A DNA stretch of 64,000 nt from Reichenbachiella sp. 5M10 (GTDB lineage Bacteria; Bacteroidota; Bacteroidia; Cytophagales; Cyclobacteriaceae), in the NCBI RefSeq assembly GCF_002742335.1, contig NZ_MDGR01000007.1, positions 3,104,501 to 3,168,500 of the forward strand. The letters are read 5' to 3'. Position numbers and translations under genes: made by a program. The notes under the pieces are model-generated. The model saw only the letters and a program-made list of their open reading frames with translations. It was not told the DNA's origin and did not search any database. This document shows, one piece after another, positions 9,693 to 55,962 of this stretch. Position 1 is the first letter of the stretch, and the number at the start of each line of letters is the position of its first letter.

Positions 9693-9696
9693 ATCT

Positions 9697-31599: not shown

Positions 31600-32754
31600 T
31601 CAAGACGATCTCCGAATCATCAATAAAATGACATAAGCGATCAAAGTACCAATAGCCCCTGCTCCTACCGAAAACAATACCGAACCGATCACATACTGCT
31701 GCAACTGATCGTACACTGAATCCAATGTCAAGCGGGTAAAATCCGAAAACTGTACAGGATCAGATACAAAAGGCGCTCCACAGAGAAAACTGATAAAAAT
31801 CAGAAAAGGTAAAAATGGCGGAATGCTGATATTGGAAAAAAACAATACCACAAGGCGGTTGAGTTTGAAAAGACTCGCAATCCCAAAAGCAATCAGCATC
31901 TGAAAACCCCACACAGGAAAAATCCCAAAAAACAGCCCCAAGCCCACCGAAAAAGCCATCTTACCCGGATTATCCTTATTCTTTCTAAACTCCTGCTTGA
32001 TTTTTTCCCATGATTTTTTGAAAGAGAAACGCATCACTATAAGCCTCGGAAGAAAAAACAACAAGGCCAACGTCACCAAGAAGGTATTCAATACACTGAT
32101 GCGCGCAAAATCTCTCACCATTCTAAAATGTGTAATCCGGTCTTCATCATAAGTCACATGAATCGGCACAGATACAAAGGGCACATTGGACCAGGCCAGT
32201 CGGACGATGACTTCTATTTCAAATTCAAACTTAGAAGTAATCCAGCGCTTTCGACTAATTGGTCCGAGCGGATATGCTCGGAATCCTGTCTGAGTATCAG
32301 GCAAGGATATACCCGTCTCAGCCCAAAACCAAAAATTGGAGAATTTGTTGCCAAAGCTACTTTTGCCAGGCACTCCCTCTTGCTCCATATTGCGAGACCC
32401 CATGACTACCGCCCCAGGGTTTGCTTCGATAGCCTCTAGTAGCGCAGGGATATCATCTGCATCATGCTGTCCGTCTGAATCTATCGTGATCGCATACTCA
32501 TAGCCTAGCTCGATGGCTCGCTCAAAGCCATGCCGCAGTGCTACCCCTTTGCCCTGATTGACGACATGAGTATAGACTTCATAGTTTGGAAAATCCTTGA
32601 GTACAGAAACGGTATCATCCGTTGCACCGTCATTGATGACGATGACGTTCGTCGTATATCTAGCTACTTTTTCTAAAACCGCACGTATTTTCGCTCCATT
32701 GTTGTACGTAGGTATCAATACGCAATAGTGGAGCTGAGATTTCTCAATAGACAT
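31600..32754 (-). CDS. Glycosyltransferase family 2 fused to DUF2062
   Basis: A 384-residue fusion. The N-terminal ~225 residues are a dolichyl-phosphate-mannose-synthase-like GT2 domain: CVLIPTYNNG, VINDGATDDT, ITIDSDGQHDADD with the metal-binding Asp residues. The C-terminal ~150 residues are a DUF2062 membrane domain with several helices. This fusion is known from aryl polyene and flexirubin clusters, where a lipid or pigment head group is presumably glycosylated. The ATG at 32754 is chosen; the upstream TTG at 32781 lies deeper in the dehydratase gene. It is the last gene of the leftward pigment operon. Confidence 0.88.
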   Translation of the reverse strand: MSIEKSQLHYCVLIPTYNNGAKIRAVLEKVARYTTNVIVINDGATDDTVSVLKDFPNYEVYTHVVNQGKGVALRHGFERAIELGYEYAITIDSDGQHDADDIPALLEAIEANPGAVVMGSRNMEQEGVPGKSSFGNKFSNFWFWAETGISLPDTQTGFRAYPLGPISRKRWITSKFEFEIEVIVRLAWSNVPFVSVPIHVTYDEDRITHFRMVRDFARISVLNTFLVTLALLFFLPRLIVMRFSFKKSWEKIKQEFRKNKDNPGKMAFSVGLGLFFGIFPVWGFQMLIAFGIASLFKLNRLVVLFFSNISIPPFLPFLIFISFLCGAPFVSDPVQFSDFTRLTLDSVYDQLQQYVIGSVLFSVGAGAIGTLIAYVILLMIRRSS

Positions 32755-33118
32755 GAAACGTCGCTTGTTGTTTGAACACAATGGAATCGTCCCCTGCTGC
32801 TCGCAAACTGGCCTTTACTTTCAACCCATCATCTGAGTCCGTCACACTGAAACGCATCACCATCTCGGGAGTAGCCCGTGGGTCGATCATCCCCAAAAAC
32901 TTAATATTAGCTGCAGTGCTCAAGCGCAATTTCTGTTGGGTGGCCAATTCCAATGCCCTCCTCAACACCTCCATCGTCACTACACCAGGCAACACAGGAT
33001 GCTGAGGAAAATGCCCATCGAACACATCATGCGTCGCATCGATCGTCAATGGCACTACATATTCGTCCTCCTCACGTCGAAGGTCCCCAAAGGTGATAAG
33101 GTCATGGAAATTATTCAT
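32744..33118 (-). CDS. 3-hydroxyacyl-ACP dehydratase (FabZ/ApeI-like hot-dog protein)
   Basis: A 124-residue hot-dog-fold dehydratase. The DVFDGHFPQHPVLPGVVTME segment with catalytic His36 is the FabZ-type active-site helix region. In an aryl polyene pathway it would remove water from the beta-hydroxyacyl-ACP to leave each conjugated double bond; E. coli uses two such enzymes, ApeI and ApeP, and this cluster also has two (see 38929-39357). The start at 33118 is an ATG. It overlaps the glycosyltransferase-DUF2062 gene by 11 bases and lies just after the LolA-like gene. Confidence 0.88.
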   Translation of the reverse strand: MNNFHDLITFGDLRREEDEYVVPLTIDATHDVFDGHFPQHPVLPGVVTMEVLRRALELATQQKLRLSTAANIKFLGMIDPRATPEMVMRFSVTDSDDGLKVKASLRAAGDDSIVFKQQATFHVY

Positions 33119-33121
33119 AGG

Positions 33122-33730
33122 CTATCGGGTAAACTGAGTCCTATCGGTCAGTGTATTGAGTTTGTGATTGCTAAAATAAATAGAACGGTAATCTTCTGGT
33201 GTTTCTTGAAACACCAATTCCTTCAAAAGCAACGATTGGACATCAAAAACCAAACGTACCTCTCTGAACATTCGTTTCATTGCCTTCTGCTTGGGAAGCA
33301 GCGTAATCTTAGCATCTCCATCGACAAGTTCAATTTCATTCTCAAAATCATCACTCTTCAAAATAGAACCATCCATTGTTTCGAGTAAAAACTTCTTAAA
33401 CCCAATGATCTGAGGGCTGTTGCTCGGTATTTTTTTCGTCCCATGTACATCGGACTTGTAAGCTTCATCCTCTGTAATCACAAAAGAATAGGCCTCAGGA
33501 ACTACCTGCTCCCATTTCATGGCACTAGGTTTCATGAAATAAAAACTACCACTGGCCTTCATTTCTTCATCGAGAAAGGAAAGTACCTGCACCTGATCAA
33601 AAGAGCTCACTATGGAAGTAGTCTCCGCATTGAACTCCTCCAACCGTTGCAAAAACTGCTCGACACTCTCCTCCTGCCCTACTACTGCGGTGCTCCACAG
33701 ACAGGCCCATACTATCATCAATCTATACAT
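33122..33730 (-). CDS. LolA-like outer-membrane lipoprotein carrier
   Basis: A 202-residue periplasmic protein with a signal peptide (about residues 1-18, ending VVGQ) and a LolA-type beta-sheet core. It has the pattern ASGSFYFMKPSAMKWEQ, where LolA proteins shield a hydrophobic ligand. Aryl polyene clusters regularly include a LolA paralogue distinct from the housekeeping one; it probably carries the pigment-lipid to the outer membrane. The ATG at 33730 gives the signal peptide; the upstream frame starts from a TTG in the preceding gene. One base separates it from the deacetylase stop. Confidence 0.85.
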   Translation of the reverse strand: MYRLMIVWACLWSTAVVGQEESVEQFLQRLEEFNAETTSIVSSFDQVQVLSFLDEEMKASGSFYFMKPSAMKWEQVVPEAYSFVITEDEAYKSDVHGTKKIPSNSPQIIGFKKFLLETMDGSILKSDDFENEIELVDGDAKITLLPKQKAMKRMFREVRLVFDVQSLLLKELVFQETPEDYRSIYFSNHKLNTLTDRTQFTR

Positions 33731-33731
33731 T

Positions 33732-34484
33732 CTATTCCTTTTTATTTTTGGGCAACAGTCCAAATTTCATACCCTTTTCGCGCACCCCATCAATCAACAG
33801 TGGCAAAGCCTCACACGTAGCATCTACTCGCTCATGCAGCAGTACAATCGCACCGTTATCGATACGGCCTACAAGCTGTTTGACCCTGTCGTCATTCAAA
33901 GCCACCGCCGTATCATAGGTTCGCACAGACCAACCGACCGTTTTCAATTTATTTTCGTTGATTACTTGTGCTATACTGGGATTGGTCACTCCAAATGGAG
34001 GTCTAAAATACAACTCCTCTTCCCCTGTCAGGTCCGACAAATAGCGCTGTGCTTTCATAATATCACGAGACAGATTTTTCCCTAGTTTAAAGCCAAAACC
34101 ATGGTTGTGTGCATACGTGTGCCCGCCTATCGCATGCCCTTCATCGATGATGCGCTGTGTGATTTCGGGATATGCCTGGATGTTTTTCCCTATTAGAAAG
34201 AACATCGCCTTCACTCCTTTTTCTTGCAGTACGTCTAGTACAAGGGGGGTATTGGCAGGATGTGGGCCATCATCAAAAGTCAGCATGACTGCATCATTCG
34301 GCAAGCGATGTATGGCAGACACGAAAAAATCGGCTCGAATCATCATCGACATCCCAAACATCAAGGACATAAACATTCCCAACAACACACACATCGCAAG
34401 CAAGACATACTCAGTACTCAACCAAAAAGGCAGACTGATCTCTACACATACAAACACCAACAATGTGAGCCCAAACTTAGACAC
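33732..34484 (-). CDS. Polysaccharide deacetylase family protein in the pigment operon
   Basis: A 250-residue carbohydrate esterase 4 protein with an N-terminal pair of membrane helices (about residues 5-50) that anchor it in the inner membrane. Motifs VMLTFDDGPHP, GGHTYAHN and FRPPFG are intact. Start is a GTG at 34484; the reading frame overlaps the upstream ketosynthase-like gene by eight bases. Its role in pigment production is not established; deacetylation of a sugar head group added by the cluster glycosyltransferase is one guess. Confidence 0.85.
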   Translation of the reverse strand: MSKFGLTLLVFVCVEISLPFWLSTEYVLLAMCVLLGMFMSLMFGMSMMIRADFFVSAIHRLPNDAVMLTFDDGPHPANTPLVLDVLQEKGVKAMFFLIGKNIQAYPEITQRIIDEGHAIGGHTYAHNHGFGFKLGKNLSRDIMKAQRYLSDLTGEEELYFRPPFGVTNPSIAQVINENKLKTVGWSVRTYDTAVALNDDRVKQLVGRIDNGAIVLLHERVDATCEALPLLIDGVREKGMKFGLLPKNKKE

Positions 34485-35412
34485 GCCTCAAGATCATGAT
34501 ACTGCTAAATTCCCTATCGCTCACGTTGATCACTGCAGCATAATCCCCAACCGACGCTTGTGCCCGTAGGGCATCATACGCCAAATGAAAACCCAATGCA
34601 GAACTACTAAAATACCTACCCACCACATCGGTATATACGACATGCGACCATGACAATTCCTGATTCAAAGTTTCATTGTAGCCTACGTATCTTTCTATTG
34701 CCACAGATTCATGAAGCCCATATTCCTCGAGGACGGCACGATACTGAGATTCCAACTCACCTGTGTCTACCATACGGACACTCACGATTTCAACATCCGT
34801 TTTCTCCTCAGTCAACACAAAGAATGAACATCCCTCGGACAATTGAGACTTAATTTCTTTGGGCCACAGCATCCGATCTGCCAGTTCTTCTACGGTATCT
34901 ATTTTCTCGTCGACAGCTCCGAGTAGTACCGATGTATCTCCCTCGTGCAGACGCAGCTTGGCGTCCATCAATGCATACTCAAACGACAAGCCCTTTTGGA
35001 TGTGCGTCATGTTATAGCTCTGATTTTTATGAAGCAAGGCTATTTGACCTGAGACTGCATTGTGTCCGGACTGGATAAATGCCGTTGGAGGAATCAAACT
35101 ATCTTCTTCTGCGAGGATCGAAGTTTTGAGGAATTTTTCTGTATCTGCTAGACAACCTAGTCCTGACCCTACGATGATCGAACTCGTCTTTTCCAGATTG
35201 GCTTTGGTCATGGCAGCTTGACTACTCGCCAAAGACATTTTCATCAATTTGGATGCCCGGCGTATCATCGCAGGAGTGATGTATTCTCGGTAGCTCGGCT
35301 CGATCAGCGATCTTTCAATGACCCCTTCTGAGAGTTGATCGTTTAGGTTTTCACCCAAAAATCCATCCAAGCAAGAAATCGACACTGCTGACTTGACAAA
35401 TACTTTTTTCAT
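34477..35412 (-). CDS. Ketosynthase-like protein lacking the active-site Cys (chain-length-factor-like)
   Basis: A 311-residue thiolase-fold protein related to beta-ketoacyl synthases but shorter. In the segment aligning with the KS active site (NMTHIQKGLSFEYALMDA against NTISTACSSAANAIMLGA of the neighbour) no Cys is present, and the later His motifs are lost. This is what is known for chain-length factors in type II polyketide and aryl polyene systems, which pair with a competent KS. The partner is probably the adjacent KS at 35409-36587, with which it overlaps by four bases. Confidence 0.8.
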   Translation of the reverse strand: MKKVFVKSAVSISCLDGFLGENLNDQLSEGVIERSLIEPSYREYITPAMIRRASKLMKMSLASSQAAMTKANLEKTSSIIVGSGLGCLADTEKFLKTSILAEEDSLIPPTAFIQSGHNAVSGQIALLHKNQSYNMTHIQKGLSFEYALMDAKLRLHEGDTSVLLGAVDEKIDTVEELADRMLWPKEIKSQLSEGCSFFVLTEEKTDVEIVSVRMVDTGELESQYRAVLEEYGLHESVAIERYVGYNETLNQELSWSHVVYTDVVGRYFSSSALGFHLAYDALRAQASVGDYAAVINVSDREFSSIMILRRV

Positions 35413-36587
35413 ACTTTAGAAAATATCAATGAGGTACTGTTGCCTCCAAACCCAAAAGAATTAGACATGACCGTCTGTATCTCCTTTTTGCGGTATGCAA
35501 CAACTGGAGTTCGCTCACTCGCGACCATCTTGTTCTTCCAATTGAGCGTTGGGAACACACAGCCGTGCATGAGGCTCAATATCGAATAGACCGCTTCGAT
35601 CCCACCAGCCGCTGCTAGGGTATGCCCTGTATGAGCTTTGGTCGAACTAAAATCCAACTCTACCCCTTCGAACACACGATCAATAGCACTCAATTCCGAA
35701 TCGTCGTTGTTGCGTGTCGCTGTGCCATGAGCATTGAGATAGTCGATATCCTGGGGGCGCAAATCTGCCAATTCGAGTGCTTCCAGCATCGCCAATGCAG
35801 CTCCATCCCCAGCAGGAGAAGTCCCTGTCTGGTGGTAGGCATCATTGGTATTGGCCCAACCTTGGCATAATCCCAATTTCTTATGCCCGGATACTTTTAT
35901 ACTTTTTTCGTTTTCCAACAGCAGAAACCCTGCTCCTTCACCGAGATTCAATCCGACGCGACCTTCGTCAAATGGACGACAGTGCTCCTTGTCATAAATC
36001 ATCAATGAGCCAAATCCATCCACAGTAAAATCCGTCAGTGCATCTGTACCACCTACCAGCACACGATCTAGTATGCCAGCCTGAATCATCCGTGCACCTA
36101 GCATGATGGCATTGGCTGCCGAAGAGCATGCCGTAGAGATAGTATTGACGTATTCTTTGATACCAAACTGACTGTTGACTAGGTGTGTGACAGTCCCCAA
36201 GTCATGGGTCATCAACTGCTGAATTTGTGACGCATCGTCTTCCAAATATAGCGAAGCAAAATATCGCTCACTCAGATCCATTCCTCCTGTCGTAGTGCCG
36301 TTGATGAGCCCTGTTTTCAACATAGAATCGACCACTGAGTCTCCCCAAGCTTCGCGACTCGCTAGCATGGCCAGCAATGCCGTACGAGGCACTTGAGACT
36401 CCAGCTCAAGCCCCAAAATATTCTTAAGTTCTACATCTGACTTTTTGAGACGGCCTTTGAGCGCAGACCCCTTGCGGGTCTCACAACTCTCGATACCTGT
36501 AGTACCTGTCTGCAGGGCACGGAGGTTTGCCTCCACACCTATGCCCAAGGCTGACACTACACCGATCCCTGTCACGTATACATTCAT
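35409..36587 (-). CDS. Beta-ketoacyl-ACP synthase (KS, FabF-like)
   Basis: A 392-residue condensing enzyme. Catalytic residues are Cys154 (TACSSAANA), His287 (NAHGTATRNND), Lys317 and His322 (KAHTGHTLAAAGG). It catalyses decarboxylative condensation of malonyl-ACP with the growing chain. It sits between an ACP gene (one-base TGATG overlap) and the Cys-less KS-like gene (four-base overlap), so a KS/CLF heterodimer like ApeO/ApeC is likely. The ATG at 36587 gives the typical MNVYVTGIGVVSALG start. Confidence 0.93.
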   Translation of the reverse strand: MNVYVTGIGVVSALGIGVEANLRALQTGTTGIESCETRKGSALKGRLKKSDVELKNILGLELESQVPRTALLAMLASREAWGDSVVDSMLKTGLINGTTTGGMDLSERYFASLYLEDDASQIQQLMTHDLGTVTHLVNSQFGIKEYVNTISTACSSAANAIMLGARMIQAGILDRVLVGGTDALTDFTVDGFGSLMIYDKEHCRPFDEGRVGLNLGEGAGFLLLENEKSIKVSGHKKLGLCQGWANTNDAYHQTGTSPAGDGAALAMLEALELADLRPQDIDYLNAHGTATRNNDDSELSAIDRVFEGVELDFSSTKAHTGHTLAAAGGIEAVYSILSLMHGCVFPTLNWKNKMVASERTPVVAYRKKEIQTVMSNSFGFGGNSTSLIFSKV

Positions 36588-36838
36588 CAGGCTTGATTCT
36601 CTTCGATGTATTTGGCTAGGCTATTGATAGAATGAAAAATCTCCTTGGCTTCCTCTGGGTTGCCTACTTTGAGATTATAACTATTGTCCAGAATCACAAT
36701 GATTTCGAGAGCATCAATCGAATCCAACCCTAACCCTTCTCCAAACAAAGGGGCATCGTCTTTGATCTCCTCAGGAGTCACCTCTTCCAGATTCAACTGC
36801 TCTATTAACTTTTCTTTCAGTTCTAATTTTAAATCCAT
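36587..36838 (-). CDS. Acyl carrier protein
   Basis: An 83-residue carrier protein with the 4'-phosphopantetheine attachment site GLGLDSIDALEI, Ser40. The acidic helical character is standard for ACPs. It is one of two ACPs in the operon (the other at 40220-40468), matching the two ACPs of the E. coli aryl polyene system. It would carry the starter or the growing polyene. Modification is probably by the holo-ACP synthase encoded at 52759-53130. Confidence 0.93.
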   Translation of the reverse strand: MDLKLELKEKLIEQLNLEEVTPEEIKDDAPLFGEGLGLDSIDALEIIVILDNSYNLKVGNPEEAKEIFHSINSLAKYIEENQA

Positions 36839-36849
36839 ATGCTAAAATA

Positions 36850-37407
36850 TTATTCCTTTTCTACAAGGTACAATTGTAACTCAAACTCCTCCTGCAGGAC
36901 TTCCACCCAGCCACCGATTACAGCCTTGGCTTTGTTTTGGGCAAACCACACTTGATTGGTTTTCATCCACTGCTCTAGGTCAAAACAATCCTTCAACAAA
37001 AACAGGTTTTCCCCGTACCATTTGTTGCGAATGGCTATTTCGCCCAACACAATATTAGGCAATGTATATACAAAATTGGCGGGGCTAGCGGCTTTTCCTT
37101 CATTGATATTTTGCTGATGTGCCCAGTCAGTATCAAGGCTCGCAGATGCATTTTGAAAATGCAATGCCAAGTCGTCTTCGCCAAAGCGGGACAAATCCAT
37201 TTTAGAGCGAACCATCTCTACTCCTAACACACCCATTTTGGACAGGTTGTCCATTTTGTGAAATTTAGGATAATCTAATTTCAGCCATTTGTACATCGCC
37301 GATAGCCGTCCCTTCAGGGTACCGTCATGTGCAGGTTCAGGCTGTGATTGACCGTCGATTTGCCAATCGTCCTTGGTCCAACTGATGTATATTTTCTGTA
37401 CTCCCAT
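36850..37407 (-). CDS. Short ketosynthase-like protein (Ketoacyl-synt_2/chain-length-factor type), no catalytic Cys
   Basis: A 185-residue protein matching the N-terminal KS-like family used as chain-length factor in aryl polyene clusters. Recognisable segments are DYPKFHKMDNLSKMGVLGVE, LHFQNASASLDTDW and SPANFVYTLPNIVLGEIAIR; the last aligns with the KS active-site helix but has no Cys. It is only about half a normal KS in length, without the C-terminal His motifs. The ATG at 37407 shares one base with the stop of the KS gene upstream, its likely partner. Confidence 0.78.
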   Translation of the reverse strand: MGVQKIYISWTKDDWQIDGQSQPEPAHDGTLKGRLSAMYKWLKLDYPKFHKMDNLSKMGVLGVEMVRSKMDLSRFGEDDLALHFQNASASLDTDWAHQQNINEGKAASPANFVYTLPNIVLGEIAIRNKWYGENLFLLKDCFDLEQWMKTNQVWFAQNKAKAVIGGWVEVLQEEFELQLYLVEKE

Positions 37408-38504
37408 CACATTTTTTGAATGATCGCTGCAGCATTGCACCCTCCAAATCCCGAAGTTGTCTTGAGCAGCATATCTATGGCCATTTCCGTATGATCTAGT
37501 ACCACATTGATTTTTTCTGTCGTACCTGGCTCTTCACAACCCAAACTTTTCAGCATCACCCCCACATCCATTGCATGCATAGACACTACCAATTCAAGAA
37601 GACCCGCTGCCCCTAGTGTATGTCCAAAGTACCCCTTCATACTCTGTACAGGTTTGTTGGCCAAGCCACTTCTGTGGAAAGCGATGGATTCCATGTCATC
37701 GTTGTAGCGAGTAGCAGTTCCATGAGCAGAAACTGCATCGATTTCTTCTGGCATCACTCCCGACTGTTTGCATGCCTTTTGGATTGCGCGATACAAACCT
37801 TCACCCGTTCGTGATGGGCCCGATATATGATTGGCATCATTGGCCGTCGCTCCACCCAAAACTCTTTTTGGTTGTCCTGCAAAAAGAGTCGATTGCCTAG
37901 ACACTACAGCACTCACTACAGCCTCTCCCAATGAAAGCCCCGTTCGATGGGCATCAAAAGGCTTGCAAGCCTCATCACTCAATGCCATGAAAGATTCAAA
38001 ACCTTTGCAGGTGAACTCCGAAAATACATCGCCTCCTAGCACCAGCACATGGTCATAAGTCTCCGTCTCCACATAATCATGTGCCATCACTACACCGAGC
38101 AAACCCGAAATACAAGCATTGGATACGACCTCTACATCCAGAGGTACTGACAGATGCTGGGCCACCACTTCAGCAACATGCTGTGGTCGCACCTCTTTGC
38201 TCAGCCCAGTTGCCAAACGATCGATATCACCTTTGGTCGTACAAAAGATCAAAAGCCATTTCCCAGTCATCTCTTTGATTTGAGACATACTTTGCTGGCA
38301 AGTTTGCACGGCCAAAGACTCCAACTTCGTAAGCCCATCCCTATGCATGATATCCGTCATGACTCCCACAGGGACATTCAAAGGAGCAAAACTCACCTCG
38401 CTGTGAACCTTCAGAGAAGATTCTCCCTTGTGCATCGCCTCAAAATTCTTGGCGACTGTGTCTCCAAGTGGAGAAATGATATTTGCAGCTCCTATGTAAC
38501 TCAT
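37407..38504 (-). CDS. Beta-ketoacyl-ACP synthase (KS)
   Basis: A 365-residue condensing enzyme with Cys131 in VSNACISGLLG, His261 in SAHGTATRYND and His295 in GYFGHTLGAAG. Its sequence is clearly more divergent from FabF than the other two KS of this cluster. It pairs with the short Cys-less protein downstream (one-base overlap). The ATG at 38504 gives the family start MSYIGAANIISPLGD and overlaps the thioesterase stop by four bases. Confidence 0.9.
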   Translation of the reverse strand: MSYIGAANIISPLGDTVAKNFEAMHKGESSLKVHSEVSFAPLNVPVGVMTDIMHRDGLTKLESLAVQTCQQSMSQIKEMTGKWLLIFCTTKGDIDRLATGLSKEVRPQHVAEVVAQHLSVPLDVEVVSNACISGLLGVVMAHDYVETETYDHVLVLGGDVFSEFTCKGFESFMALSDEACKPFDAHRTGLSLGEAVVSAVVSRQSTLFAGQPKRVLGGATANDANHISGPSRTGEGLYRAIQKACKQSGVMPEEIDAVSAHGTATRYNDDMESIAFHRSGLANKPVQSMKGYFGHTLGAAGLLELVVSMHAMDVGVMLKSLGCEEPGTTEKINVVLDHTEMAIDMLLKTTSGFGGCNAAAIIQKM

Positions 38505-38932
38505 CCCTCTATCCAATCAACCTGGTTCATCCACTCGGTATAAAACTCCGGATAGGACAATTCTAATTCTTTGTTTTCCGCATGCAAAAACACCTGTTCA
38601 GTACGCCCTTTGCAACTAATTCGATCTGTTTCCAGGTTCCATACCTCGTACTCATGGATGAGTTTGGCGGATCTGCTTTTAATCAAGCGGCAGGTGATTC
38701 GAATGTTCTCCCCAAAAGTGATCGGAGACTTGTAGTCAATCGCTACTTTGACGATCGGCACAAAAAATCCGTGCGACGCAATATTCATATAGGACATGCC
38801 GCAGCACTCTCCAAGTCTCTCACGGCCGTCTTCAAAATACTTGAGATAGTTGCCGTGCCAAACGACACCCATCGCGTCCACTTCCGAAAACCTTGCTCTC
38901 ACCGATATACTCTCTTCGATATATTCCATCAC
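38501..38932 (-). CDS. Acyl-CoA/acyl-ACP thioesterase (4HBT, YbgC-like)
   Basis: A 143-residue hot-dog thioesterase. The FSEVDAMGVVWHGNYLKYFED segment is the 4-hydroxybenzoyl-CoA thioesterase/YbgC active-site motif, with the catalytic Asp at about residue 19. Within the operon it may release the finished chain from ACP or remove stalled acyl groups; aryl polyene clusters generally encode one. Two ATGs (38932 and 38929) are possible. It overlaps its neighbours by four bases on each side. Confidence 0.87.
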   Translation of the reverse strand: MMEYIEESISVRARFSEVDAMGVVWHGNYLKYFEDGRERLGECCGMSYMNIASHGFFVPIVKVAIDYKSPITFGENIRITCRLIKSRSAKLIHEYEVWNLETDRISCKGRTEQVFLHAENKELELSYPEFYTEWMNQVDWIEG

Positions 38933-39357
38933 CCTTGTTGGATCATAATTTTCATTTCACAGTGGGCCAAAGGCTGACCATCCTCCTCACTACTGCCTGA
39001 GATGATCATGATCCCCATCACGTCATTTTTGATCGTCACGGTAGTACGAATTTTACTACCCACCTTGGGGCGCTGTACTATTGAGACTTTGCTGACCGCA
39101 CCGATAAATCCCAAAGGAACTGGTATTTGCTGCTGGTGACACTCATACCCAGCTTTGGCAGCTACTGTCTGAGCAATATTCTCAATCAACCCGGATTCAG
39201 TCATCTCTCCCTCATACACAAACATATTGTCCTCCCTCACCTCTAGCTGAGAGATCACTTCCACATCTGTACACGTCAAGAGTTCATCGATCATGACGAT
39301 AGGAGCTTTCTGAGGGATATATTCAGTGATTCGGTCTCGGTTGATTAGTGCTTTCAT
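38929..39357 (-). CDS. Hot-dog 3-hydroxyacyl-ACP dehydratase-like protein (ApeP-like)
   Basis: A 142-residue hot-dog protein. YIPQKAPIVMIDELL and LIENIAQTVAAKAGYE match the dehydratase-like family found in aryl polyene clusters; the latter segment includes the Glu and Gln of the FabA/FabZ active helix, while the HFPxxPxxPG loop is missing. It is probably the partner or counterpart of the FabZ-like enzyme at 32744-33118, paralleling E. coli ApeI/ApeP. Overlaps by four bases on both sides. Confidence 0.82.
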   Translation of the reverse strand: MKALINRDRITEYIPQKAPIVMIDELLTCTDVEVISQLEVREDNMFVYEGEMTESGLIENIAQTVAAKAGYECHQQQIPVPLGFIGAVSKVSIVQRPKVGSKIRTTVTIKNDVMGIMIISGSSEEDGQPLAHCEMKIMIQQG

Positions 39358-40220
39358 GAATGATGAAAAAAGTTATAATAATTGAACCAATGGTCAGGAA
39401 TCTCCCTTACCTTCTGCTCCAAAGCAGCTGCAAAATGCTGTGCAATTTCTTCAGGTTTCTTTCGGTCGACTTCTGGCACATGTGCAGTGAAATGATAATT
39501 AAATTTGCTTTGTTTGTGAGCAAATACAAAGGCGAAAGGAGCTTTTAATTTGGAGACAAGCTGAAAAGGTCCCGAAGGAAACAATGCTTTTTGGTCAAAA
39601 AAATCAAGATCATAAGTCGGCGCACCAGTCATGAATCGATCAGCATGCATACACAAGATCTCTCCTCGCTTCAACACTTCATAAATCTTTATCAAGTGGC
39701 CAAGCCCTTCTCCTTGCACAATCACCTCATAACTCTGCGCTCCTTGTCTAGACAAAAACTCTTTGATTTTTTCGTGCTCATTGTCATACATAAGTATGTT
39801 GATCTTACGATCAAATGAATTGAGCAATTGGCCAGCGATATCCCAATTGCCATAATGCCCCGAAATGAGGATGAGCCCCTTTCCTTCGTTGGCCATACTG
39901 AGCAAGTCTTCTTCACCCTGCTGAGTATAGCTAAATAGCTTCTTTTTGCCTGCGGCAAAAGCAATTTTGTCAAGAAGTGAGTGGGCAAGTTCGGAGAAAT
40001 TTCTACGAATGACTGGCAAGGACTCTTTTCGCGAAAGCTTCAGTGTCTTAGCGTAGAAATCAACAAGGGCCTCTTTGGGCCCTGCAGAAAACAAGAAATA
40101 ATAATAAGAAACGACTTTCAACAACAAGTAAGCCGCATGAATATTCGAAAATTTAAGTGTCCATACAATGATTTGATAACCCAGTAGGCTACCCTTCGTA
40201 CGTCCAGTCCATTTCGTCAT
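39354..40220 (-). CDS. LpxL/HtrB-type lipid acyltransferase
   Basis: A 288-residue member of the lysophospholipid/lipid A late acyltransferase family. The catalytic HX4D motif is SGHYGNWD (His122, Asp127), and an N-terminal hydrophobic stretch anchors it to the membrane. In E. coli this family adds secondary acyl chains to lipid A; in aryl polyene clusters a copy is thought to attach the polyene chain to a lipid acceptor. The acceptor here is unknown. It shares one base with the ACP stop upstream and overlaps the dehydratase start by four bases. Confidence 0.88.
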   Translation of the reverse strand: MTKWTGRTKGSLLGYQIIVWTLKFSNIHAAYLLLKVVSYYYFLFSAGPKEALVDFYAKTLKLSRKESLPVIRRNFSELAHSLLDKIAFAAGKKKLFSYTQQGEEDLLSMANEGKGLILISGHYGNWDIAGQLLNSFDRKINILMYDNEHEKIKEFLSRQGAQSYEVIVQGEGLGHLIKIYEVLKRGEILCMHADRFMTGAPTYDLDFFDQKALFPSGPFQLVSKLKAPFAFVFAHKQSKFNYHFTAHVPEVDRKKPEEIAQHFAAALEQKVREIPDHWFNYYNFFHHS

Positions 40221-40468
40221 TAGGCATGCTCGTGCTTGTTGACTATAAAGTCGTAAAAATCGTTGAGCGTACTGATAGATTTAAAATCCTCACCTGTCAC
40301 TTTGAATCCGAAGTGACTTTCGATCACCACGACCAAATCGACATAGTCTAAGCTATCCAAATCGAGGGTTTCGTGCAAAACACCGTTAGGATCAAGAGTA
40401 TCAACCTCCACTTCAAACTCCTCCGCCAAAAAACCATTTACAGTTTCTACTACTTCTTCTCTACTCAT
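40220..40468 (-). CDS. Acyl carrier protein
   Basis: An 82-residue ACP with attachment site TLDLDSLDYVDLV, Ser39. It differs enough from the ACP at 36587-36838 for the two to have separate duties, for example one for the aromatic starter and one for extension. The start is the ATG at 40468, eight bases inside the preceding KS gene; the longer frame reads through that gene. Confidence 0.92.
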   Translation of the reverse strand: MSREEVVETVNGFLAEEFEVEVDTLDPNGVLHETLDLDSLDYVDLVVVIESHFGFKVTGEDFKSISTLNDFYDFIVNKHEHA

Positions 40469-41675: not shown

Positions 41676-41679
41676 CTCT

Positions 41680-48044: not shown

Positions 48045-49094
48045 ATGAAAATATCCGCCATAGACGCAAAATTCGAAGCACAAAAAATAGCGTTTGCTCC
48101 TATCACGTTTCAAGCCATTATGGCCATGAAAAATCTCGGTGTGATGGAGTACATCTACAACAAAAGAGGCAAAGCTACTACTCAAGGTCTTGTCAATGAC
48201 CTAGGGCTCTCCAAATACTCTATCGAAGTAATGCTCGAAACCGCAGAAGTGATGGACATTATTACTCTTGAGGAAGACAAGATTTCTCTTTCCAAGATCG
48301 GCTTCTTTTTGCTCCGAGACGAGCTCACGCGTGTCAATATGAATTTTGTCAATGACGTATGCTACGAAGGATCGAAGTATCTCGAAGAATCTCTCGAAAC
48401 CAACAAACCTGCTGGACTCAAGGTATTCGGGGAGTGGGACACTGTATATGAGGGGCTGTCTAAACTCGAAAAACCTGTACGCAAATCGTGGTTGGAGTTT
48501 GATCACTTCTACTCCCAGGATGCCTTTGATTCGGCACTCAAAATTGTCTTTGCTGACAAGCCAAAGAAACTGTTTGACATAGGGGGTAATACAGGCAAAT
48601 GGTCCATCAAATGCTGTGGATACGATCCAGATGTGAACATCAAGATATTGGATCTACCTGGTCAGATCGAAATGGCTAAGCAAAACATCGCCGATCACCA
48701 ACTTCAAGATCGAATAGAGTTTCACCCAATCAATCTCCTGGACACTGCGCAAAAAGTACCACAGGGTGCGGATGTGATATGGATGAGTCAGTTTTTGGAT
48801 TGTTTTTCGGAAGAGGAAATTCTAGCGATCCTCCTCAACTGTGCACAAGCGGCCTCAGACAATACGACGGTATTCATCATGGAACCCTTCATCGACAACC
48901 AACCTTATGATGCTGCCACTTACTCACTCGTCGCTACATCGTTGTACTTCACATGCATCGCCAACGGAAACAGCAAAATGTACAAAATGTCAACATTCAA
49001 AGAGTTGGTAGACAAAGCTGGAATGAAAGTGGACGAAACATTTGAGTTGATAGGGGATAGCTACCACACCATCCTCAAATGCTCACTCAAATAA
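48045..49094 (+). CDS. O-methyltransferase-like SAM-dependent methyltransferase
   Basis: A 349-residue protein of the plant-type O-methyltransferase kind: an N-terminal winged-helix dimerisation domain (about 1-110) and a C-terminal Rossmann domain with FDIGGNTGKW (SAM motif I, about residue 180), ILDLPGQIEMAK and the MSQFLDCFSEEEIL stretch. Such enzymes methylate phenolic hydroxyls, which fits an aryl polyene head group. It stands alone with about 145 bases of leader, and a small hairpin lies just past its stop. Tail-to-tail with the TerB-like gene. Confidence 0.87.
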   Translation: MKISAIDAKFEAQKIAFAPITFQAIMAMKNLGVMEYIYNKRGKATTQGLVNDLGLSKYSIEVMLETAEVMDIITLEEDKISLSKIGFFLLRDELTRVNMNFVNDVCYEGSKYLEESLETNKPAGLKVFGEWDTVYEGLSKLEKPVRKSWLEFDHFYSQDAFDSALKIVFADKPKKLFDIGGNTGKWSIKCCGYDPDVNIKILDLPGQIEMAKQNIADHQLQDRIEFHPINLLDTAQKVPQGADVIWMSQFLDCFSEEEILAILLNCAQAASDNTTVFIMEPFIDNQPYDAATYSLVATSLYFTCIANGNSKMYKMSTFKELVDKAGMKVDETFELIGDSYHTILKCSLK

Positions 49095-49100
49095 GCCTTC

Positions 49101-49733: not shown

Positions 49734-50972
49734 CTACCTATTTGCCTCTTCAGCAGCTTCTTGCTCCATCTTGACAACATGAGCTACAGTTGTGATGAGC
49801 TTTTTGTGTCTTTTGACAAAAGGGTTTTTCATATCCCACACATAGCCAGCTAGTATAGAAGTGATCTGCCTTTTGATCTCCATTTGGATGTTGCCGTTGA
49901 AAAAGATACGTTGTAAATCCCCATTGTACCATGTATCCACTACAGCATGAAAGACCTTGCTGGCTTGTTTCATATGATCGACATATTCTTTGTCCCAATC
50001 GGGTTTATCCCCCTGCAGTTCGCGATCGATAAGCTTGGCACTGAGCAGTGCAGATTCGGTTGCAATCGCCACACCAGACGAAAAAACCGGATCGATAAAC
50101 CCTGTCGTATTCCCTGCCAAAGCAAACCGATGTCCGTACAGGGTCTCTGCCGAATTCGTGTAATCATCCGCTCCACGTACATCAAAGAGGAATTCTTTGC
50201 CCTCAAAACGCTCCACAAAATGATCAGATTGAGCCATCATTTTCCGAAACAAATCATTCTGATCTTTGGCAGGCAGATCAAACCATTTTTTGTTCCCTAC
50301 AAAACCCAACGAGGTGTTGCCATTTGAAAAAGGAATCACCCAGTACCACAAGTCCTGTTCCAGTACTTCAAAAGTAATACGCAACGGACGCTTGAACGCC
50401 TCACGGTTGGTTTCTTTGACTTGCGTAAACAACGATCGACGACCAGTCCCCATGTACTGTACCTCTAGGTTGAGCATCTTGGAAAGCACCCCCGCATTGC
50501 CACTAGAATCCAGAACATAGCGAAACTCCTCGGTACGAGTCTTTTCTTTCCCAGCTATTTGCGCCACGACCTTGTCATCTTGAAAATCAATCGTCTTGAT
50601 CACAGACTCGTAATCAAAGCGTGCACCCTTTTTCTCAGCCTCCTTTGCCAAGATATCGTCAAACTCGTCTCTTGGCACTTGCCAAGTCCACGTCCAGCCT
50701 GGTGTGAAATTTTCGGCAAACGAAATATCTATCTCATCATCCTTTCGGATAAACAAGGCCCCTGATTTCACTTCAAATTTCGCATCTTCCAACACCTTGA
50801 GTAGCCCTACCTCCTCGAAGTGCCCCATGCTGACAGGCAGCAAGCTCTCTCCTATCGTAAACCGCGGGAACTTGGATTTCTCCACTACCGTCACACTATA
50901 GCCTTGGTTGACCAAGTACGATGCGGCCACACTTCCTGCGGGTCCTGCCCCGATTATCAATACGTCTGTCAT
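49734..50972 (-). CDS. Flavin-dependent halogenase-like oxidoreductase
   Basis: A 412-residue FAD protein of the tryptophan/phenol halogenase group. The GAGPAG dinucleotide motif is at residues 8-13, KFPRFTIGESLLP at about 34-46 is typical of the phenolic halogenase branch, and WYWVIP at 209-214 fits the WxWxIP halogenase signature. Lys69 (FEVKSG) is a candidate catalytic Lys. It might chlorinate or brominate the aryl ring; a plain oxygenase or geranylgeranyl-reductase-like role is the alternative. The ATG at 50972 is used; a longer frame to 51035 adds unlike residues. Divergent from the C45 gene. Confidence 0.85.
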   Translation of the reverse strand: MTDVLIIGAGPAGSVAASYLVNQGYSVTVVEKSKFPRFTIGESLLPVSMGHFEEVGLLKVLEDAKFEVKSGALFIRKDDEIDISFAENFTPGWTWTWQVPRDEFDDILAKEAEKKGARFDYESVIKTIDFQDDKVVAQIAGKEKTRTEEFRYVLDSSGNAGVLSKMLNLEVQYMGTGRRSLFTQVKETNREAFKRPLRITFEVLEQDLWYWVIPFSNGNTSLGFVGNKKWFDLPAKDQNDLFRKMMAQSDHFVERFEGKEFLFDVRGADDYTNSAETLYGHRFALAGNTTGFIDPVFSSGVAIATESALLSAKLIDRELQGDKPDWDKEYVDHMKQASKVFHAVVDTWYNGDLQRIFFNGNIQMEIKRQITSILAGYVWDMKNPFVKRHKKLITTVAHVVKMEQEAAEEANR

Positions 50973-51055
50973 GATTCTGTCGAAAAGTTTGTCTGATGGC
51001 AAGCATATTAGATAGTCTAGTGTGGCGTTACACACGAAATCACTAAAATTGCAGC

Positions 51056-52762
51056 TTGAAGCACTTGCCTATTGGTTTAGATTTTAGAGGTCAAAATTAT
51101 CAAATAGAATTGAAAAAGCGTTACCTAGTTTCTGGCATCTTGTTGATTATTCTTGTGATCGGGGCAATTGGCTTTGTCGTACGAGTCGTCTATGCGGCTC
51201 CACCTCTGCCTCCCTCCTCCGTAGCCCCCAACCAACTAGAGGTCGTCTCGGACAATCACTACCGACTCGGCAACAGTTGGCTCAAAAAAAGCAAACACGG
51301 CAACTGGGAGAGCTACATCGAAGGCAGTGCCTATGACCGTGGCAAAACCATCGGTATTCTCCACCAGCAACTCATCCAGGACCAAGAGCAAGTCTTCGTC
51401 GACGAGATCAACAATAACGTTAGCTCATGGTTTCTCCGCAAGACTCTCATGATGGGGATCGCATGGTTCAACCGGGACCTAGACCAGTACATCCCACTCG
51501 AATACCGACAAGAGATTTATGGTGTTTCGGAGTATTTTGCCGACGAGTATGACTACATCGGCCCCAAATACAACCGCATCATCAACTACCACGCTGCACA
51601 TGACATAGGTCATGCCGTCCAAAACATGCACCTTGTCGGTTGCACTTCGGTTGGCATGTGGCACTTCAGTGACACGGCACAATTCATGCGTTCTGGGCGC
51701 AACTTTGACTTCTACTTTGGAGATGAGTTTGCCAAAAACAAGATTGTACTCTTCTGCAACCCTGACGAGGGGTACAAGTACCTCTCGGTCACGTGGGGAG
51801 GCTTCTGTGGAGTGGTATCAGGGATGAATGAGCATGGACTCAGTATCACCCTCAACTCCGCTATCTCTGAGATCCCTACCCAATCCGGCACGCCTGTATC
51901 CATCATCGCCAGAGACATCCTTCAATATGCCCAAACAATCGCTGAGGCACAAGCCATCGCCGACCGCTACGACAGTTTTGTTTCAGAACTCTTCACGATC
52001 TCCTCTCTCCAAGACCGCCAAATGGCTGTCATCGAAAAATCCCCTGAGCGTACAGGGCTATACGTCCCTCCTAGTGACACCCTCATCGTCACCAATCACT
52101 ACCAAAGCCCCGAACTCAAGAACCTCCCTCTCAACCTCGAACATATGAATGCTTCGGAATCCGTCGACCGGTATACCCGTGCTCAAGAGCTCTCCTCCCG
52201 AATGGAAAGCTGTGCTCCCGTCCCTCTTGCTGCCCTCCTTCGCAACCAAGCGGGCATCCATGACAAAGACCTCGGACTAGGCAACCCCAAAGCCATCAAC
52301 CAACTACTCGCACACCATGCCGTCATCTTTGACAATGTCCAGCGCCGCGTATGGGTTTCCAACTACCCTTTCCAAGAAAACACCTTTGATGCTTATGACT
52401 TGAGTCATTTTGAACGATGGACACAGGACGATGTGTCGGTGACCATTGACTCGCTAGAGATCGCACCGGACCCCTTCTACCTCAGTGAAGGGTTCCAAAC
52501 TTTCAAGAGATTCAAGCAGCTCAAAGAACAAGTCATCCATGCCACCAATCAAGAGTTGCCACTTACTCCCAAACTCGTGGAAGAGTTCGTCGCGAGCAAT
52601 CCTCAATACTATGAGACCTACCGACTCCTAGGCAACTACTTTGCCGTACAAAACAAAAGCCAATTGGCCATCGACTACTACAAGCAAGGGCTCGCCAAGG
52701 ACATCGCCTACACCGAAGACCGAGACTACATGATCGAACAAATCAAACTTCTCAGCGAATGA
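51056..52762 (+). CDS. C45-family autoproteolytic acyltransferase/hydrolase with TPR-like tail
   Basis: A 568-residue membrane-anchored Ntn-hydrolase related to isopenicillin N acyltransferase. A membrane helix at about residues 20-45 is followed by a periplasmic part. The nucleophile is probably Cys196 in LVGCTSVGMW, exposed by self-cleavage after Gly, and SGRNFDF matches the acyltransferase core. The last ~60 residues resemble a TPR repeat (YETYRLLGNYFAVQNKSQLA). The start is a TTG at 51056; a second TTG at 51110 (giving KKRYLVSGILL) is equally plausible. It overlaps acpS by four bases, so it belongs to the pigment operon; transfer of an acyl group in the final product is a possible role. 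Confidence 0.85.
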   Translation: MKHLPIGLDFRGQNYQIELKKRYLVSGILLIILVIGAIGFVVRVVYAAPPLPPSSVAPNQLEVVSDNHYRLGNSWLKKSKHGNWESYIEGSAYDRGKTIGILHQQLIQDQEQVFVDEINNNVSSWFLRKTLMMGIAWFNRDLDQYIPLEYRQEIYGVSEYFADEYDYIGPKYNRIINYHAAHDIGHAVQNMHLVGCTSVGMWHFSDTAQFMRSGRNFDFYFGDEFAKNKIVLFCNPDEGYKYLSVTWGGFCGVVSGMNEHGLSITLNSAISEIPTQSGTPVSIIARDILQYAQTIAEAQAIADRYDSFVSELFTISSLQDRQMAVIEKSPERTGLYVPPSDTLIVTNHYQSPELKNLPLNLEHMNASESVDRYTRAQELSSRMESCAPVPLAALLRNQAGIHDKDLGLGNPKAINQLLAHHAVIFDNVQRRVWVSNYPFQENTFDAYDLSHFERWTQDDVSVTIDSLEIAPDPFYLSEGFQTFKRFKQLKEQVIHATNQELPLTPKLVEEFVASNPQYYETYRLLGNYFAVQNKSQLAIDYYKQGLAKDIAYTEDRDYMIEQIKLLSE

Positions 52763-53130
52763 TCCTAGGCATAGGTACAGATCTCGTAGAGACGGCACGT
52801 TTGGCTCGTAGACTCGATGACCGGCAGTTTTTAGAGACGGTATTTACTTCTGCGGAGATCAAATATTGCCTCAGCAAAGGACACCCGGAGCAGCACTTGG
52901 CGGCACGCTTTGCGGCCAAAGAGGCCTATATGAAAGCCCTAGGAACTGGCTGGAGCAAACACGCCGACTTCAAGGAAATCGAAGTACAAAACAGCCCCGA
53001 AGGCGGGCCATTGATCGTACTATCTGGCGCGACCAAAAGATATTTTGATAAATCAGAACTGAAAGACATCTTTGTATCCTTAAGCCATACCAGCCAACAT
53101 GCGGTGGCTTATATCATCATTACTAAGTAA
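52759..53130 (+). CDS. acpS: Holo-[acyl-carrier-protein] synthase
   Basis: A 123-residue phosphopantetheinyl transferase of the AcpS type, which attaches 4'-phosphopantetheine from CoA to the ACP serine. ILGIGTDLVETARLA at the N-terminus and FAAKEAYMKALGTGW with the metal-binding Glu at about residue 58 are diagnostic. Placed between the C45 gene (four-base overlap) and the ligase gene (32-base overlap), it is likely to serve the two cluster ACPs; whether it is the only AcpS of the cell is unknown. Confidence 0.95.
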   Translation: MILGIGTDLVETARLARRLDDRQFLETVFTSAEIKYCLSKGHPEQHLAARFAAKEAYMKALGTGWSKHADFKEIEVQNSPEGGPLIVLSGATKRYFDKSELKDIFVSLSHTSQHAVAYIIITK

Positions 53131-54439
53131 GCACACTGTGGAGATAGACACGAACTCAGATTTTTCATCAATAGACGACATCAAGCAGTTGCAAAACCAA
53201 CACTTCCTGTCTCATCTTTCTTACTCCCTGTCACACTCGGTATACTACCAGAGCAAGTTCGAGGCACTCGATTTGTCTCTAGAGGACATCCAGAGTATCG
53301 ATGACATCCACAAAATCCCCGTCACGACCAAAGAAGAAATCGAACGTCACAATGTCGACTTCTTGGCGGTGAGCAAAAAACAGATCATCGAGTACGTGAC
53401 TACCTCTGGTACCCTCGGGGATCCGATCAGCATAGCCCTGACTCATCAAGATCAACAGCGCCTAGCACGCAACGAACGACGAGCTCTAGAGCTCTGTCAA
53501 ATCACCGCCGAAGACACCATACAAATCACCACCACGCTCGACAAGCGATTCATGGCGGGAATGGCCTACTACCTCGGAGCAACTGCTCTCGGTGCTTCTG
53601 TGATCCGCTCTGGCATAGGAGATCCAGACTTCCAATGGGACAATATCCGTCGCTTCGAGCCCACAGTACTTATCGCGGTACCATCCTTTGCTTACAAATT
53701 TGGCAACTACTTACTATCCAAGGGAATAGATCCAAAGACGACTTCCGTTCGAAAAATAGTATGTATCGGTGAACCCATCCGTGATTCGAATTTCGAGCCC
53801 AACACCCTCCACCAAAAACTCACTGAACTATGGGATGTCACGCTACACTCCACTTATGCCAGTACTGAAATGGCAACTGCATTTACCGAATGCAACGAAG
53901 GTATAGGGGGACACTTGCTACCTGAGCTCATATATGTGGAGATATTGGATGACCACAACCAACCCGTCGCGATGGGAGAGGTCGGAGAGATCACCGTCAC
54001 ACCCTTTGGGATAGAAGGCATGCCGCTACTGCGCTACAAGACCGGAGACTTGGCACGGCTGCACACGGCTCCCTGCCTCTGTGGCCGAAATACCCCTAGA
54101 CTAGGGGCCATCGAAGGCCGCAAAGGCCAAATGATCAAATGGAAGGGTACGACACTGTTTCCACAGCAAATCGAAAACGTACTCAACCACATCTCCGAGA
54201 TCGACAACTACATCATCGAACTCTCACTGGACGAACTCGGATTGGACAAACTCAAAGTCATCCTCCCCGATCATCTGGACGAGTATATCATCGCACAGGC
54301 CCAGCGACTGCTCCAGCAGCGCCTCAGGGTCAATCCGATCTTGGAGCAAAACACCGCAGCATATATCTCCAATGAGATTTTGCCGAAAGGCAGTCGAAAA
54401 CCAAGAAGATTCGTAGACAAAAGAGAACTGGTACATTGA
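53099..54439 (+). CDS. AMP-forming acid-CoA/ACP ligase (PaaK-like, ApeH-type)
   Basis: A 446-residue adenylate-forming enzyme similar to phenylacetate-CoA ligase. The TTSGTLGDPISI loop binds ATP, STYASTEMATAF is the acid-binding motif, LLRYKTGDLARL carries the ribose-binding Asp, and GAIEGRKGQMIKWKGTTLFP begins the mobile C-terminal domain. In aryl polyene synthesis the equivalent ligase activates the aryl acid and loads it onto ACP, which fits the ammonia-lyase in the same cluster. The ATG at 53099 overlaps acpS by 32 bases; a GTG at 53138 just after the acpS stop is an alternative start. Confidence 0.88.
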   Translation: MRWLISSLLSKHTVEIDTNSDFSSIDDIKQLQNQHFLSHLSYSLSHSVYYQSKFEALDLSLEDIQSIDDIHKIPVTTKEEIERHNVDFLAVSKKQIIEYVTTSGTLGDPISIALTHQDQQRLARNERRALELCQITAEDTIQITTTLDKRFMAGMAYYLGATALGASVIRSGIGDPDFQWDNIRRFEPTVLIAVPSFAYKFGNYLLSKGIDPKTTSVRKIVCIGEPIRDSNFEPNTLHQKLTELWDVTLHSTYASTEMATAFTECNEGIGGHLLPELIYVEILDDHNQPVAMGEVGEITVTPFGIEGMPLLRYKTGDLARLHTAPCLCGRNTPRLGAIEGRKGQMIKWKGTTLFPQQIENVLNHISEIDNYIIELSLDELGLDKLKVILPDHLDEYIIAQAQRLLQQRLRVNPILEQNTAAYISNEILPKGSRKPRRFVDKRELVH

Positions 54440-55962
54440 AAAAAATAAAAGATAAATACGAAGTAGTCATCATCGGCTCAGGCATGGCAGGCCTCTCCTG
54501 TGGACTCATGTTGGCAATGGAAGGCAAGTCCGTTTGTATTTTGGAAAAGAATGCTCAGATCGGTGGTACTCTTCAGACTTTCAAACGAGACGGAGGCAAA
54601 TTTGACACGGGAGTACACTATGTCGGAGGTCTCGACGAAGGTCAACCCCTCTACCCTTACTTCAAGTACCTTGACATCTTCAAGGATATCGACATCATGA
54701 AGCTGGACGAGAATGCCTATGACATCATCTCCTTTGATGGAGATGACAATCTCTACCCACACGCACAAGGCTATGACAACTTCATAGATCAACTCGTCCG
54801 ATACTTCCCAGACGAGCGAGAAAACCTAGTACGCTACTTGGATGATGTACAGGCTCTGTGTAAAAAGTTTGCACTCTACAACGTCTATGATCTCCCCGCC
54901 AAAGCCAACGAACTCGAATACATGTATGACGGAGCGGCACAGCGCATCCGCACCTATACATCCAATGAGAAACTACAACAAGTGCTTGCAGGCTCCAATA
55001 TCCTCTATGCTGGTGAAGAGGAAAAAACGCCCTTTTATGTCCATGCTCTGATCATCAACTCCTACATCATGAGCTCCTACAAGTTTCATCATGGAGGCAG
55101 CCAGATCAGCCGCTCACTCAACTACTCAATCAAAGAACGAGGCGGCAACATCGTCCGCAATGCCGAAGTAACCAGCATCAACCACAATGACAACACTGTC
55201 GAGAGTGTCACCCTCGCAGATGGCAGAACCCTCAAAGGCGACATATTCATCTCCAACGTACACCCTACAGAAACCATCAAGCTCATGGATCAGAGTCGCA
55301 TGCGCAAGTCATACCTCTCACGCATCGCACATCTCGAAAATACCGTTTCGGTCTTCACTCTTTATCTTGTACTCAAACCGAATACAGTCAAATACATCAA
55401 CTCCAACCAGTACAACTTCAAAGATGGGGATGTATGGCAGCTCACCAACTACAAACCTGAAAACTGGGGCAAGGATTTCGCAGTATTCTATCTGCCGGAC
55501 AACAAAAACCCAGAGTACGCCAGCGTGATTACCGTCATGGCTTACATGAAAATAGAGGAAATGACCCCTTGGCTCAAGACCTTCAACACTACGCTGCAAG
55601 AGAGTGAGCGTGACGAAAGCTACCAAAACTTCAAGGAACTCAAAGCACAGTTTTTGCTGGATAGAATCAGTCAAATCATCCCAGACATACGATCCAAAAT
55701 CAAAAGTTATCACACGTCGACCCCTCTGACTCAACGCGACTACCTCAATACCACGGACGGGTCCCTCTACGGAATATCCAGGGATTATAATTTCCCGCTC
55801 AAGTCGCAGATCAATACACGTACCAAGATGAAAAACATGTATTTCACGGGACAAAACATCATCTTACACGGCATACTCGGCGCGACGATCAGTTCGGTAG
55901 TGACCTGTGCGGAGATTCTTGGTAGAGACTACCTCCTCAAAAAGATCAAATCCGTCCTCTAA
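54436..55962 (+). CDS. CrtI/phytoene desaturase-like FAD oxidoreductase
   Basis: A 508-residue flavoprotein of the CrtI/retinol saturase family: GSGMAGLSCGLMLAMEG at about residues 14-30, then LEKNAQIGGTLQTF, GKFDTGVHYVGGL, and at the C-terminus FTGQNIILHGILGATISS. No phytoene synthase or other carotenoid gene is present, so a carotenoid role is not supported; desaturation or saturation of the polyene chain is a more fitting guess. The start is a TTG that overlaps the ligase stop as TTGA; the first ATG would cut the FAD motif. Confidence 0.87.
   Translation: MKKIKDKYEVVIIGSGMAGLSCGLMLAMEGKSVCILEKNAQIGGTLQTFKRDGGKFDTGVHYVGGLDEGQPLYPYFKYLDIFKDIDIMKLDENAYDIISFDGDDNLYPHAQGYDNFIDQLVRYFPDERENLVRYLDDVQALCKKFALYNVYDLPAKANELEYMYDGAAQRIRTYTSNEKLQQVLAGSNILYAGEEEKTPFYVHALIINSYIMSSYKFHHGGSQISRSLNYSIKERGGNIVRNAEVTSINHNDNTVESVTLADGRTLKGDIFISNVHPTETIKLMDQSRMRKSYLSRIAHLENTVSVFTLYLVLKPNTVKYINSNQYNFKDGDVWQLTNYKPENWGKDFAVFYLPDNKNPEYASVITVMAYMKIEEMTPWLKTFNTTLQESERDESYQNFKELKAQFLLDRISQIIPDIRSKIKSYHTSTPLTQRDYLNTTDGSLYGISRDYNFPLKSQINTRTKMKNMYFTGQNIILHGILGATISSVVTCAEILGRDYLLKKIKSVL

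Follow-up and report, generated by a model that had tools for sequence, protein, structure and literature searches.

Polyene and dialkylresorcinol loci of a very probable split flexirubin pathway in Reichenbachiella sp. 5M10

The window analyzed here is a stretch of 64,000 nucleotides of the Reichenbachiella sp. 5M10 genome (contig NZ_MDGR01000007.1, positions 3,104,501 to 3,168,500). An ORF survey and family-model searches revealed long, closely packed open reading frames across positions 31600-55962, and their families agree with those listed in a preliminary description of the locus (ammonia-lyase, ketoreductase, ketosynthases, acyl carrier proteins, dehydratases, exporter, ligase and others), which is thus borne out. 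The polysaccharide deacetylase, the tryptophan-halogenase-like flavoprotein, the C45 protein and the CrtI-like oxidoreductase were absent from that list. The genes, with their window positions, strands and supporting matches, are:

31600-32781, minus strand, GT2 glycosyltransferase-DUF2062 fusion (Pfam; homologues in the clusters of relatives)
32744-33118, minus strand, hot-dog dehydratase, FabA/FabZ-like (Pfam FabA)
33122-33763, minus strand, LolA-like carrier (top NCBIfam model LolA2_flexi, 118.7 bits, cut-off 125)
33732-34484, minus strand, polysaccharide deacetylase (Pfam)
34477-35412, minus strand, Cys-less ketosynthase (KS)-like protein, putative chain-length factor (Pfam Ketoacyl-synt_2; catalytic residues missing)
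35409-36587, minus strand, ketosynthase, Cys-His-His (family match and residue check)
36587-36838, minus strand, acyl carrier protein (Pfam PP-binding)
36850-37440, minus strand, short Cys-less KS-like protein (predicted fold nearest the ApeC chain-length factor)
37407-38516, minus strand, ketosynthase, Cys-His-His (family match and residue check)
38501-38932, minus strand, 4HBT thioesterase (Pfam)
38929-39357, minus strand, hot-dog dehydratase (weak FabZ match; no Pfam match)
39354-40220, minus strand, LpxL-type acyltransferase (Pfam Lip_A_acyltrans)
40220-40525, minus strand, acyl carrier protein (Pfam PP-binding)
40461-41675, minus strand, ketosynthase, Cys-His-His (nearest solved relatives 3-oxoacyl-ACP synthase/KAS I)
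41680-42414, minus strand, ketoreductase, a short-chain dehydrogenase (family match)
42411-43940, minus strand, tyrosine ammonia-lyase FlxA (NF053541, 756 bits, cut-off 700; ASG motif)
44103-47900, plus strand, MMPL exporter-acyltransferase-methyltransferase fusion (Pfam; homologues of 1224-1283 aa in relatives)
48045-49094, plus strand, FlxJ-family methyltransferase (NF053543, 476 bits, cut-off 560)
49734-51035, minus strand, tryptophan-halogenase-like flavoprotein (Pfam; WxWx[IV]P motifs)
51056-52762, plus strand, C45 autoproteolytic acyltransferase/hydrolase (NF040521, 187 bits, cut-off 85)
52759-53130, plus strand, AcpS phosphopantetheinyl transferase (Pfam)
53099-54439, plus strand, acyl (4-coumarate) ligase FlxY (NF053551, 557 bits, cut-off 520)
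54436-55962, plus strand, CrtI/carotenoid-isomerase-like oxidoreductase (family match; homologues in the flexirubin clusters of relatives)

We take WxWx[IV]P, found in the flavoprotein at 49734-51035, to be the tryptophan-halogenase motif. On the 3' side of the cluster, a long open reading frame at 58092-61469 resembles, by eye, a sensor histidine kinase containing PAS-like repeats.

FlxA and FlxY both pass the curated NCBI flexirubin cut-offs (NCBIfam models), in agreement with the earlier reading of an aryl polyene/flexirubin-type cluster with a starter-making ammonia-lyase. FlxJ was by far the best match of the methyltransferase, yet under the curated cut-off, and the top-scoring model of the LolA-like protein was the flexirubin one, yet again below cut-off. 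Since these two proteins fall short of their cut-offs and the FlxA score is the lowest among the 25 phylum-sample genomes over the cut-off, the enzymes of the window are somewhat diverged.

The window contains a type II polyene core (ketosynthases, their KS-like partners, ketoreductase, dehydratases and acyl carrier proteins). The ape systems of Escherichia coli and Xenorhabdus are similar in their type II polyketide synthase core, ApeC-like short chain-length factor and Lol-like and RND-type transport, but unlike the window they are described, in the excerpt of PMC8253772 used here, without an ammonia-lyase or a dialkylresorcinol (DAR) half. An ape-type aryl polyene system that merely acquired an ammonia-lyase would account for the common core of ketosynthase, chain-length factor, ketoreductase, two dehydratases, two acyl carrier proteins, thioesterase and exporter (same excerpt). 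However, the flexirubin cut-offs are exceeded by FlxA and FlxY, and contiguous flexirubin clusters with inserted dar genes have much the same gene order; we give this origin almost no credence. An ape-type cluster in a genome without DAR genes is ruled out by the dar locus described below.

The residue check showed that Cys-His-His is kept in the ketosynthases at 40461-41675, 37407-38516 and 35409-36587, and that the KS-like protein at 34477-35412 is without all three catalytic residues; a sequence search for solved relatives of the latter found none. The 196-aa protein at 36850-37440 matched no Pfam or NCBIfam model at E 0.001. The best Foldseek match of its predicted structure (mean pLDDT 85) was chain B of 6qsp (238 residues, taken as ApeC, E 8e-7), the ApeO-ApeC ketosynthase/chain-length-factor complex, and on this predicted fold it is a putative Cys-less KS-like protein nearest to the ApeC chain-length factor. 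It matched the KS-like profile with an hhalign probability of 86.7% (E 4.4e-6) and gave no hhalign match to the KS3/KS4 profile, while a 100% match to the KS2 profile is apparently trivial because that profile holds one fused row, from the relative G238. No separate copy of the short protein is present in G238, where a single 579-aa frame takes the place of the adjoining ketosynthase and seems to join the homologue of the ketosynthase at 37407-38516 to the short KS-like partner. Three ketosynthases and two Cys-less relatives had been counted in the preliminary description; the residue check agrees, and the second Cys-less protein holds because its predicted structure best matches the ApeO-ApeC complex. 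The total equals in number the five putative ketosynthases of Chitinophaga pinensis (FlxC, I, L, N and O; excerpt of PMC3992019).

As previously noted, neither DarA nor DarB was found in the window. A search of the genome located both at a separate dar locus at C7:675.7-686.1 kb, within L043 (G000:C7:670000-689500, G000 being the strain's own genome). The sole DarB match of the genome at E 1e-60 lies there, approximately 2.47 Mb from FlxA on a contig of 4,630,784 bases, and is one of four matches to the KAS III C-terminal domain in this genome:

C7:678,958-680,100, DarB (NF053539, 621 bits, cut-off 550)

The nearest solved structure of DarB is the ketosynthase StlD (E 8e-104). The locus also carries DarA, DarG (184 bits, cut-off 170) and DarH (456 bits, cut-off 300), the last two passing their curated models, an ABC ATPase and permease, an acyl carrier protein, a ketosynthase with Cys-His-His and a neighbouring Cys-less KS-like protein (residue check). 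DarA matched no Pfam or NCBIfam model, and among solved structures gave only a weak match to a putative trp repressor binding protein (E 0.024); it was called from its place beside DarB and its similarity (37.5% identity) to the gene beside darB in the contiguous flexirubin cluster of G025.

The dar locus is adjoined on the opposite strand by a flavoprotein that weakly matches halogenases, and the locus lies just upstream of genes that by eye are mraZ-, rsmH- and FtsL-like (L043 17305-19033), the start of a cell-division cluster. Elsewhere, L044 (G000:C7:4546500-4565500) contains at 8814-11594 a type III polyketide synthase of the chalcone/stilbene type beside a putative methyltransferase, with an opposite-strand membrane protein that by eye resembles UbiA; together these might form another resorcinol/pyrone pathway. 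This synthase (L044 9526-10644) was considered as a replacement for DarB and rejected, since it matches chalcone/stilbene synthases. A ketosynthase domain at G000:C7:3358067-3358822 (L001), about 0.2 Mb from the window cluster, lies in a 2392-aa open frame, probably encoding a polyunsaturated fatty acid synthase or a type I polyketide synthase.

Judging from gene content, the window very probably encodes the polyene-forming part of a flexirubin pathway and the remote locus on the same contig its DAR half, and we infer that the strain makes flexirubin. Gene content, family membership and genome positions were observed here, and the reactions of FlxA, FlxY and DarA/DarB are taken from papers on other bacteria. 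FlxA would convert tyrosine to 4-coumarate, which FlxY would activate, and the aryl polyene would be built by the ketosynthases and their Cys-less partners together with the ketoreductase, dehydratases and acyl carrier proteins; possible ring-decorating enzymes are FlxJ and the halogenase-like flavoprotein. In the remote half, DarB would couple two acyl chains and DarA would aromatize the ring to give the DAR. Candidates for the acyltransferase forming the ester are DarH, the C45 protein and a ligase-like enzyme, and export of the pigment would proceed via the MMPL, LolA, GT2 and ABC genes. The preliminary description had left a choice between a resorcinol half encoded elsewhere and a free or lipid-linked aryl polyene acid as product. 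The genome shows the former, and the latter is not needed because the dar genes, with DarB, DarG and DarH over their cut-offs, exist on the same contig.

The dar genes are not inside the window cluster, nor are they required of flexirubin clusters: in C. pinensis flxA-flxY are Cpin_1853-1877 and darB/darA are Cpin_6850/6851, separate from the polyene half by about 5,000 locus tags (Schoner et al. 2014, excerpt of PMC3992019). By its published description C. pinensis also resembles the window in having, besides five putative ketosynthases, a tyrosine ammonia-lyase, acyl ligase, deacetylase, LolA, glycosyltransferase and exporter. Flavobacterium johnsoniae has the same kinds of enzymes but differs in carrying its flexirubin genes at a single locus, one 37-kb cluster (same excerpt). 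In Azoarcus sp. BH72 the dar locus is likewise apart, with its own acyl carrier protein (darC), ketosynthase (darJ), BtrH-like and ABC genes; it lies at azo0283-0293, about 19 locus tags from the polyene locus azo0253-0264, and the polyene (arc) genes occupy two unlinked loci. Unlike that of the window, the Azoarcus starter is of the xanthomonadin type (chorismate-utilising enzyme) and does not come from a tyrosine ammonia-lyase. The excerpt of PMC3949708 from which these data come also counts 39 genomes with polyene genes, of which 16 have DAR clusters; in nine the DAR cluster lies within or beside the polyene genes. For Reichenbachiella, the excerpt of PMC10752948 gives one strain with separate arylpolyene and resorcinol regions, each having flexirubin as its match, and two strains with a joint 'Arylpolyene & Resorcinol' region; for Dyadobacter, dar and flx clusters are discussed with no spacing given in the excerpt of PMC9606717.

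Since the split arrangement has been published in the C. pinensis, Azoarcus and Reichenbachiella papers, the window is an ordinary split flexirubin cluster, new as a member alone. The terms divergent and unusual, applied to it earlier, are not supported, the same separation having been published for C. pinensis (PMC3992019, excerpt) and recurring in relatives. The missing dar genes are in the same genome, and there is therefore no case for cataloguing the window as a new pigment cluster class. In a flexirubin producer, the two halves can look like an ordinary aryl polyene cluster and a resorcinol cluster that has nothing to do with it.

The linkage of FlxA and DarB was determined in phylum, order and family samples, the own genome G000 being counted in each. 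In the phylum sample FlxA was over the cut-off in 25 of 296 genomes, 24 of which had DarB (22 over the cut-off, the other two scoring 499 and 519 bits). Of the 296 genomes, 271 had no FlxA over the cut-off, and 2 of these matched DarB at E 1e-60. FlxA and DarB were within 25 kb of each other in 20 of the 24, the exceptions being G000 and the untidy G017, G238 and G269, in which FlxA or the dar genes have few partners or stand alone. The sole FlxA genome of the 25 without a DarB match at E 1e-60, G118 (L112), has a FlxA polyene cluster and could be a genuine Bacteroidota example of an aryl polyene without DAR. The order sample had FlxA in 18 of 148 genomes, with DarB over the cut-off in 10 and not in 8 of these; the two genes were linked in G388 and G426, 49 kb apart in G423 and apart in G000, G360, G363 and G411, whereas G375, G390 and G417 were too fragmented to judge. 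FlxA was present in 15 of 98 genomes of the family sample (including G452, a partial match below the cut-off), seven with DarB over the cut-off and eight without, some of these incomplete. None of the seven showed linkage (G000, G496, G466, G446 and G502 apart; G484 and G519 too fragmented). The genus-mate G496 keeps genes of both halves, with FlxA and DarB 2.26 Mb apart. Because 8 of 15 FlxA genomes in the family and 8 of 18 in the order lack DarB over the cut-off, there may well be FlxA-type polyene clusters that lack DAR.

The same family count (8 of 15) would suit a strain in which the product of the window is an aryl polyene acid, free or lipid-linked, and that of the remote dar genes a separate dialkylresorcinol, for example a signal, never joined to it, as would the acyl carrier protein and ketosynthase pair of the dar half and a distance of 2.47 Mb at which the halves could be controlled separately. 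We consider this improbable, given that the DarG model is named for flexirubin and the DarH model for DAR-linked acyltransferases, that DarB (E 1e-60) occurs in 24 of 25 FlxA genomes against 2 of 271 others, and that flexirubin has been characterized in the equally separated C. pinensis (PMC3992019, excerpt). A single flexirubin pathway encoded by the two halves remains the preferred reading.

A set of named loci, the best 80 of 587 confirmed stretches with flanks of at most 10 kb (dar genes beyond the flanks being missed), had DarA or DarB in 42, a window-like LpxL-to-dehydratase junction without intervening dar genes in 15, including Dyadobacter, Winogradskyella and Crocinitomicaceae, and another order or too short a stretch in 23; such a top-ranked subset is not a census, and close kin of the window may be missing from it.

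The phylum and order samples include 22 contiguous genomes. Of these, 15 carry the dar block flanked by the LpxL and thioesterase genes (in three, DarA is preceded by a CrtI-like gene), five have it after the MMPL gene, and G099 and G253 differ. On the dar side, the gene after the ABC permease encodes a ketosynthase in eight split genomes (G000, G496, G466, G446, G502, G363, G411 and G360) and in G423; six of the nine have the Cys-less partner next, and none was observed in G411, G423 and G360. The whole dar-side ketosynthase set was absent from the split but untidy G269, G017 and G238. Both sets are present in G253, where the halves are adjacent, and the fully read single clusters of G025, G057, G095 and G388 have one such ketosynthase/KS-like pair.

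Two ketosynthase trees were built, the first with 42 rows, 4 of them outgroup, and one fragment dropped (G496, 290 aa), the second, for constraint tests, with 39 rows; both were made without the Flavobacterium-like G170, G174, G245, G202, G206 and G021, taken as near copies, and both are quick searches with SH-aLRT support alone and a root made unsure by a very long outgroup branch. Nine dar-side ketosynthases and that of G253 formed a clade (SH-aLRT 100), with those of G446, G502 and G519 apart; a single clade of all 13 dar-side ketosynthases is neither supported nor rejected (p 0.10). Recent copying of a ketosynthase between the two loci was rejected, as grouping the strain's own two with the two of its genus-mate costs 91.7 log-likelihood units (AU p 1.8e-41, the group having been named after the first tree was seen). 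On these trees the strain's polyene-side and dar-side ketosynthases are not close sisters, and the dar-side one is an old, distinct lineage. The dar half thus looks like an old, self-contained unit.

The dar-side set raises a modest question, the source of the resorcinol acyl chains. It is conceivable, although we hold it doubtful, that split producers have two anciently diverged type II elongation sets, the dar-side one (acyl carrier protein, ketosynthase and Cys-less partner) making the DAR acyl chains in place of fatty acid synthesis and fixing their lengths, and that single clusters such as those of Flavobacterium lost one set when dar was inserted into the polyene cluster.

Sixteen DarB-like matches of 357-405 bits, below the cut-off, were found in frames of 616-675 aa, perhaps a longer, fused relative of DarB, and 13 of the 16 are in genomes without FlxA over the cut-off (the 16 genomes being G182, G254, G280, G299, G309, G352, G389, G441, G444, G447, G448, G464, G471, G504, G517 and G520).
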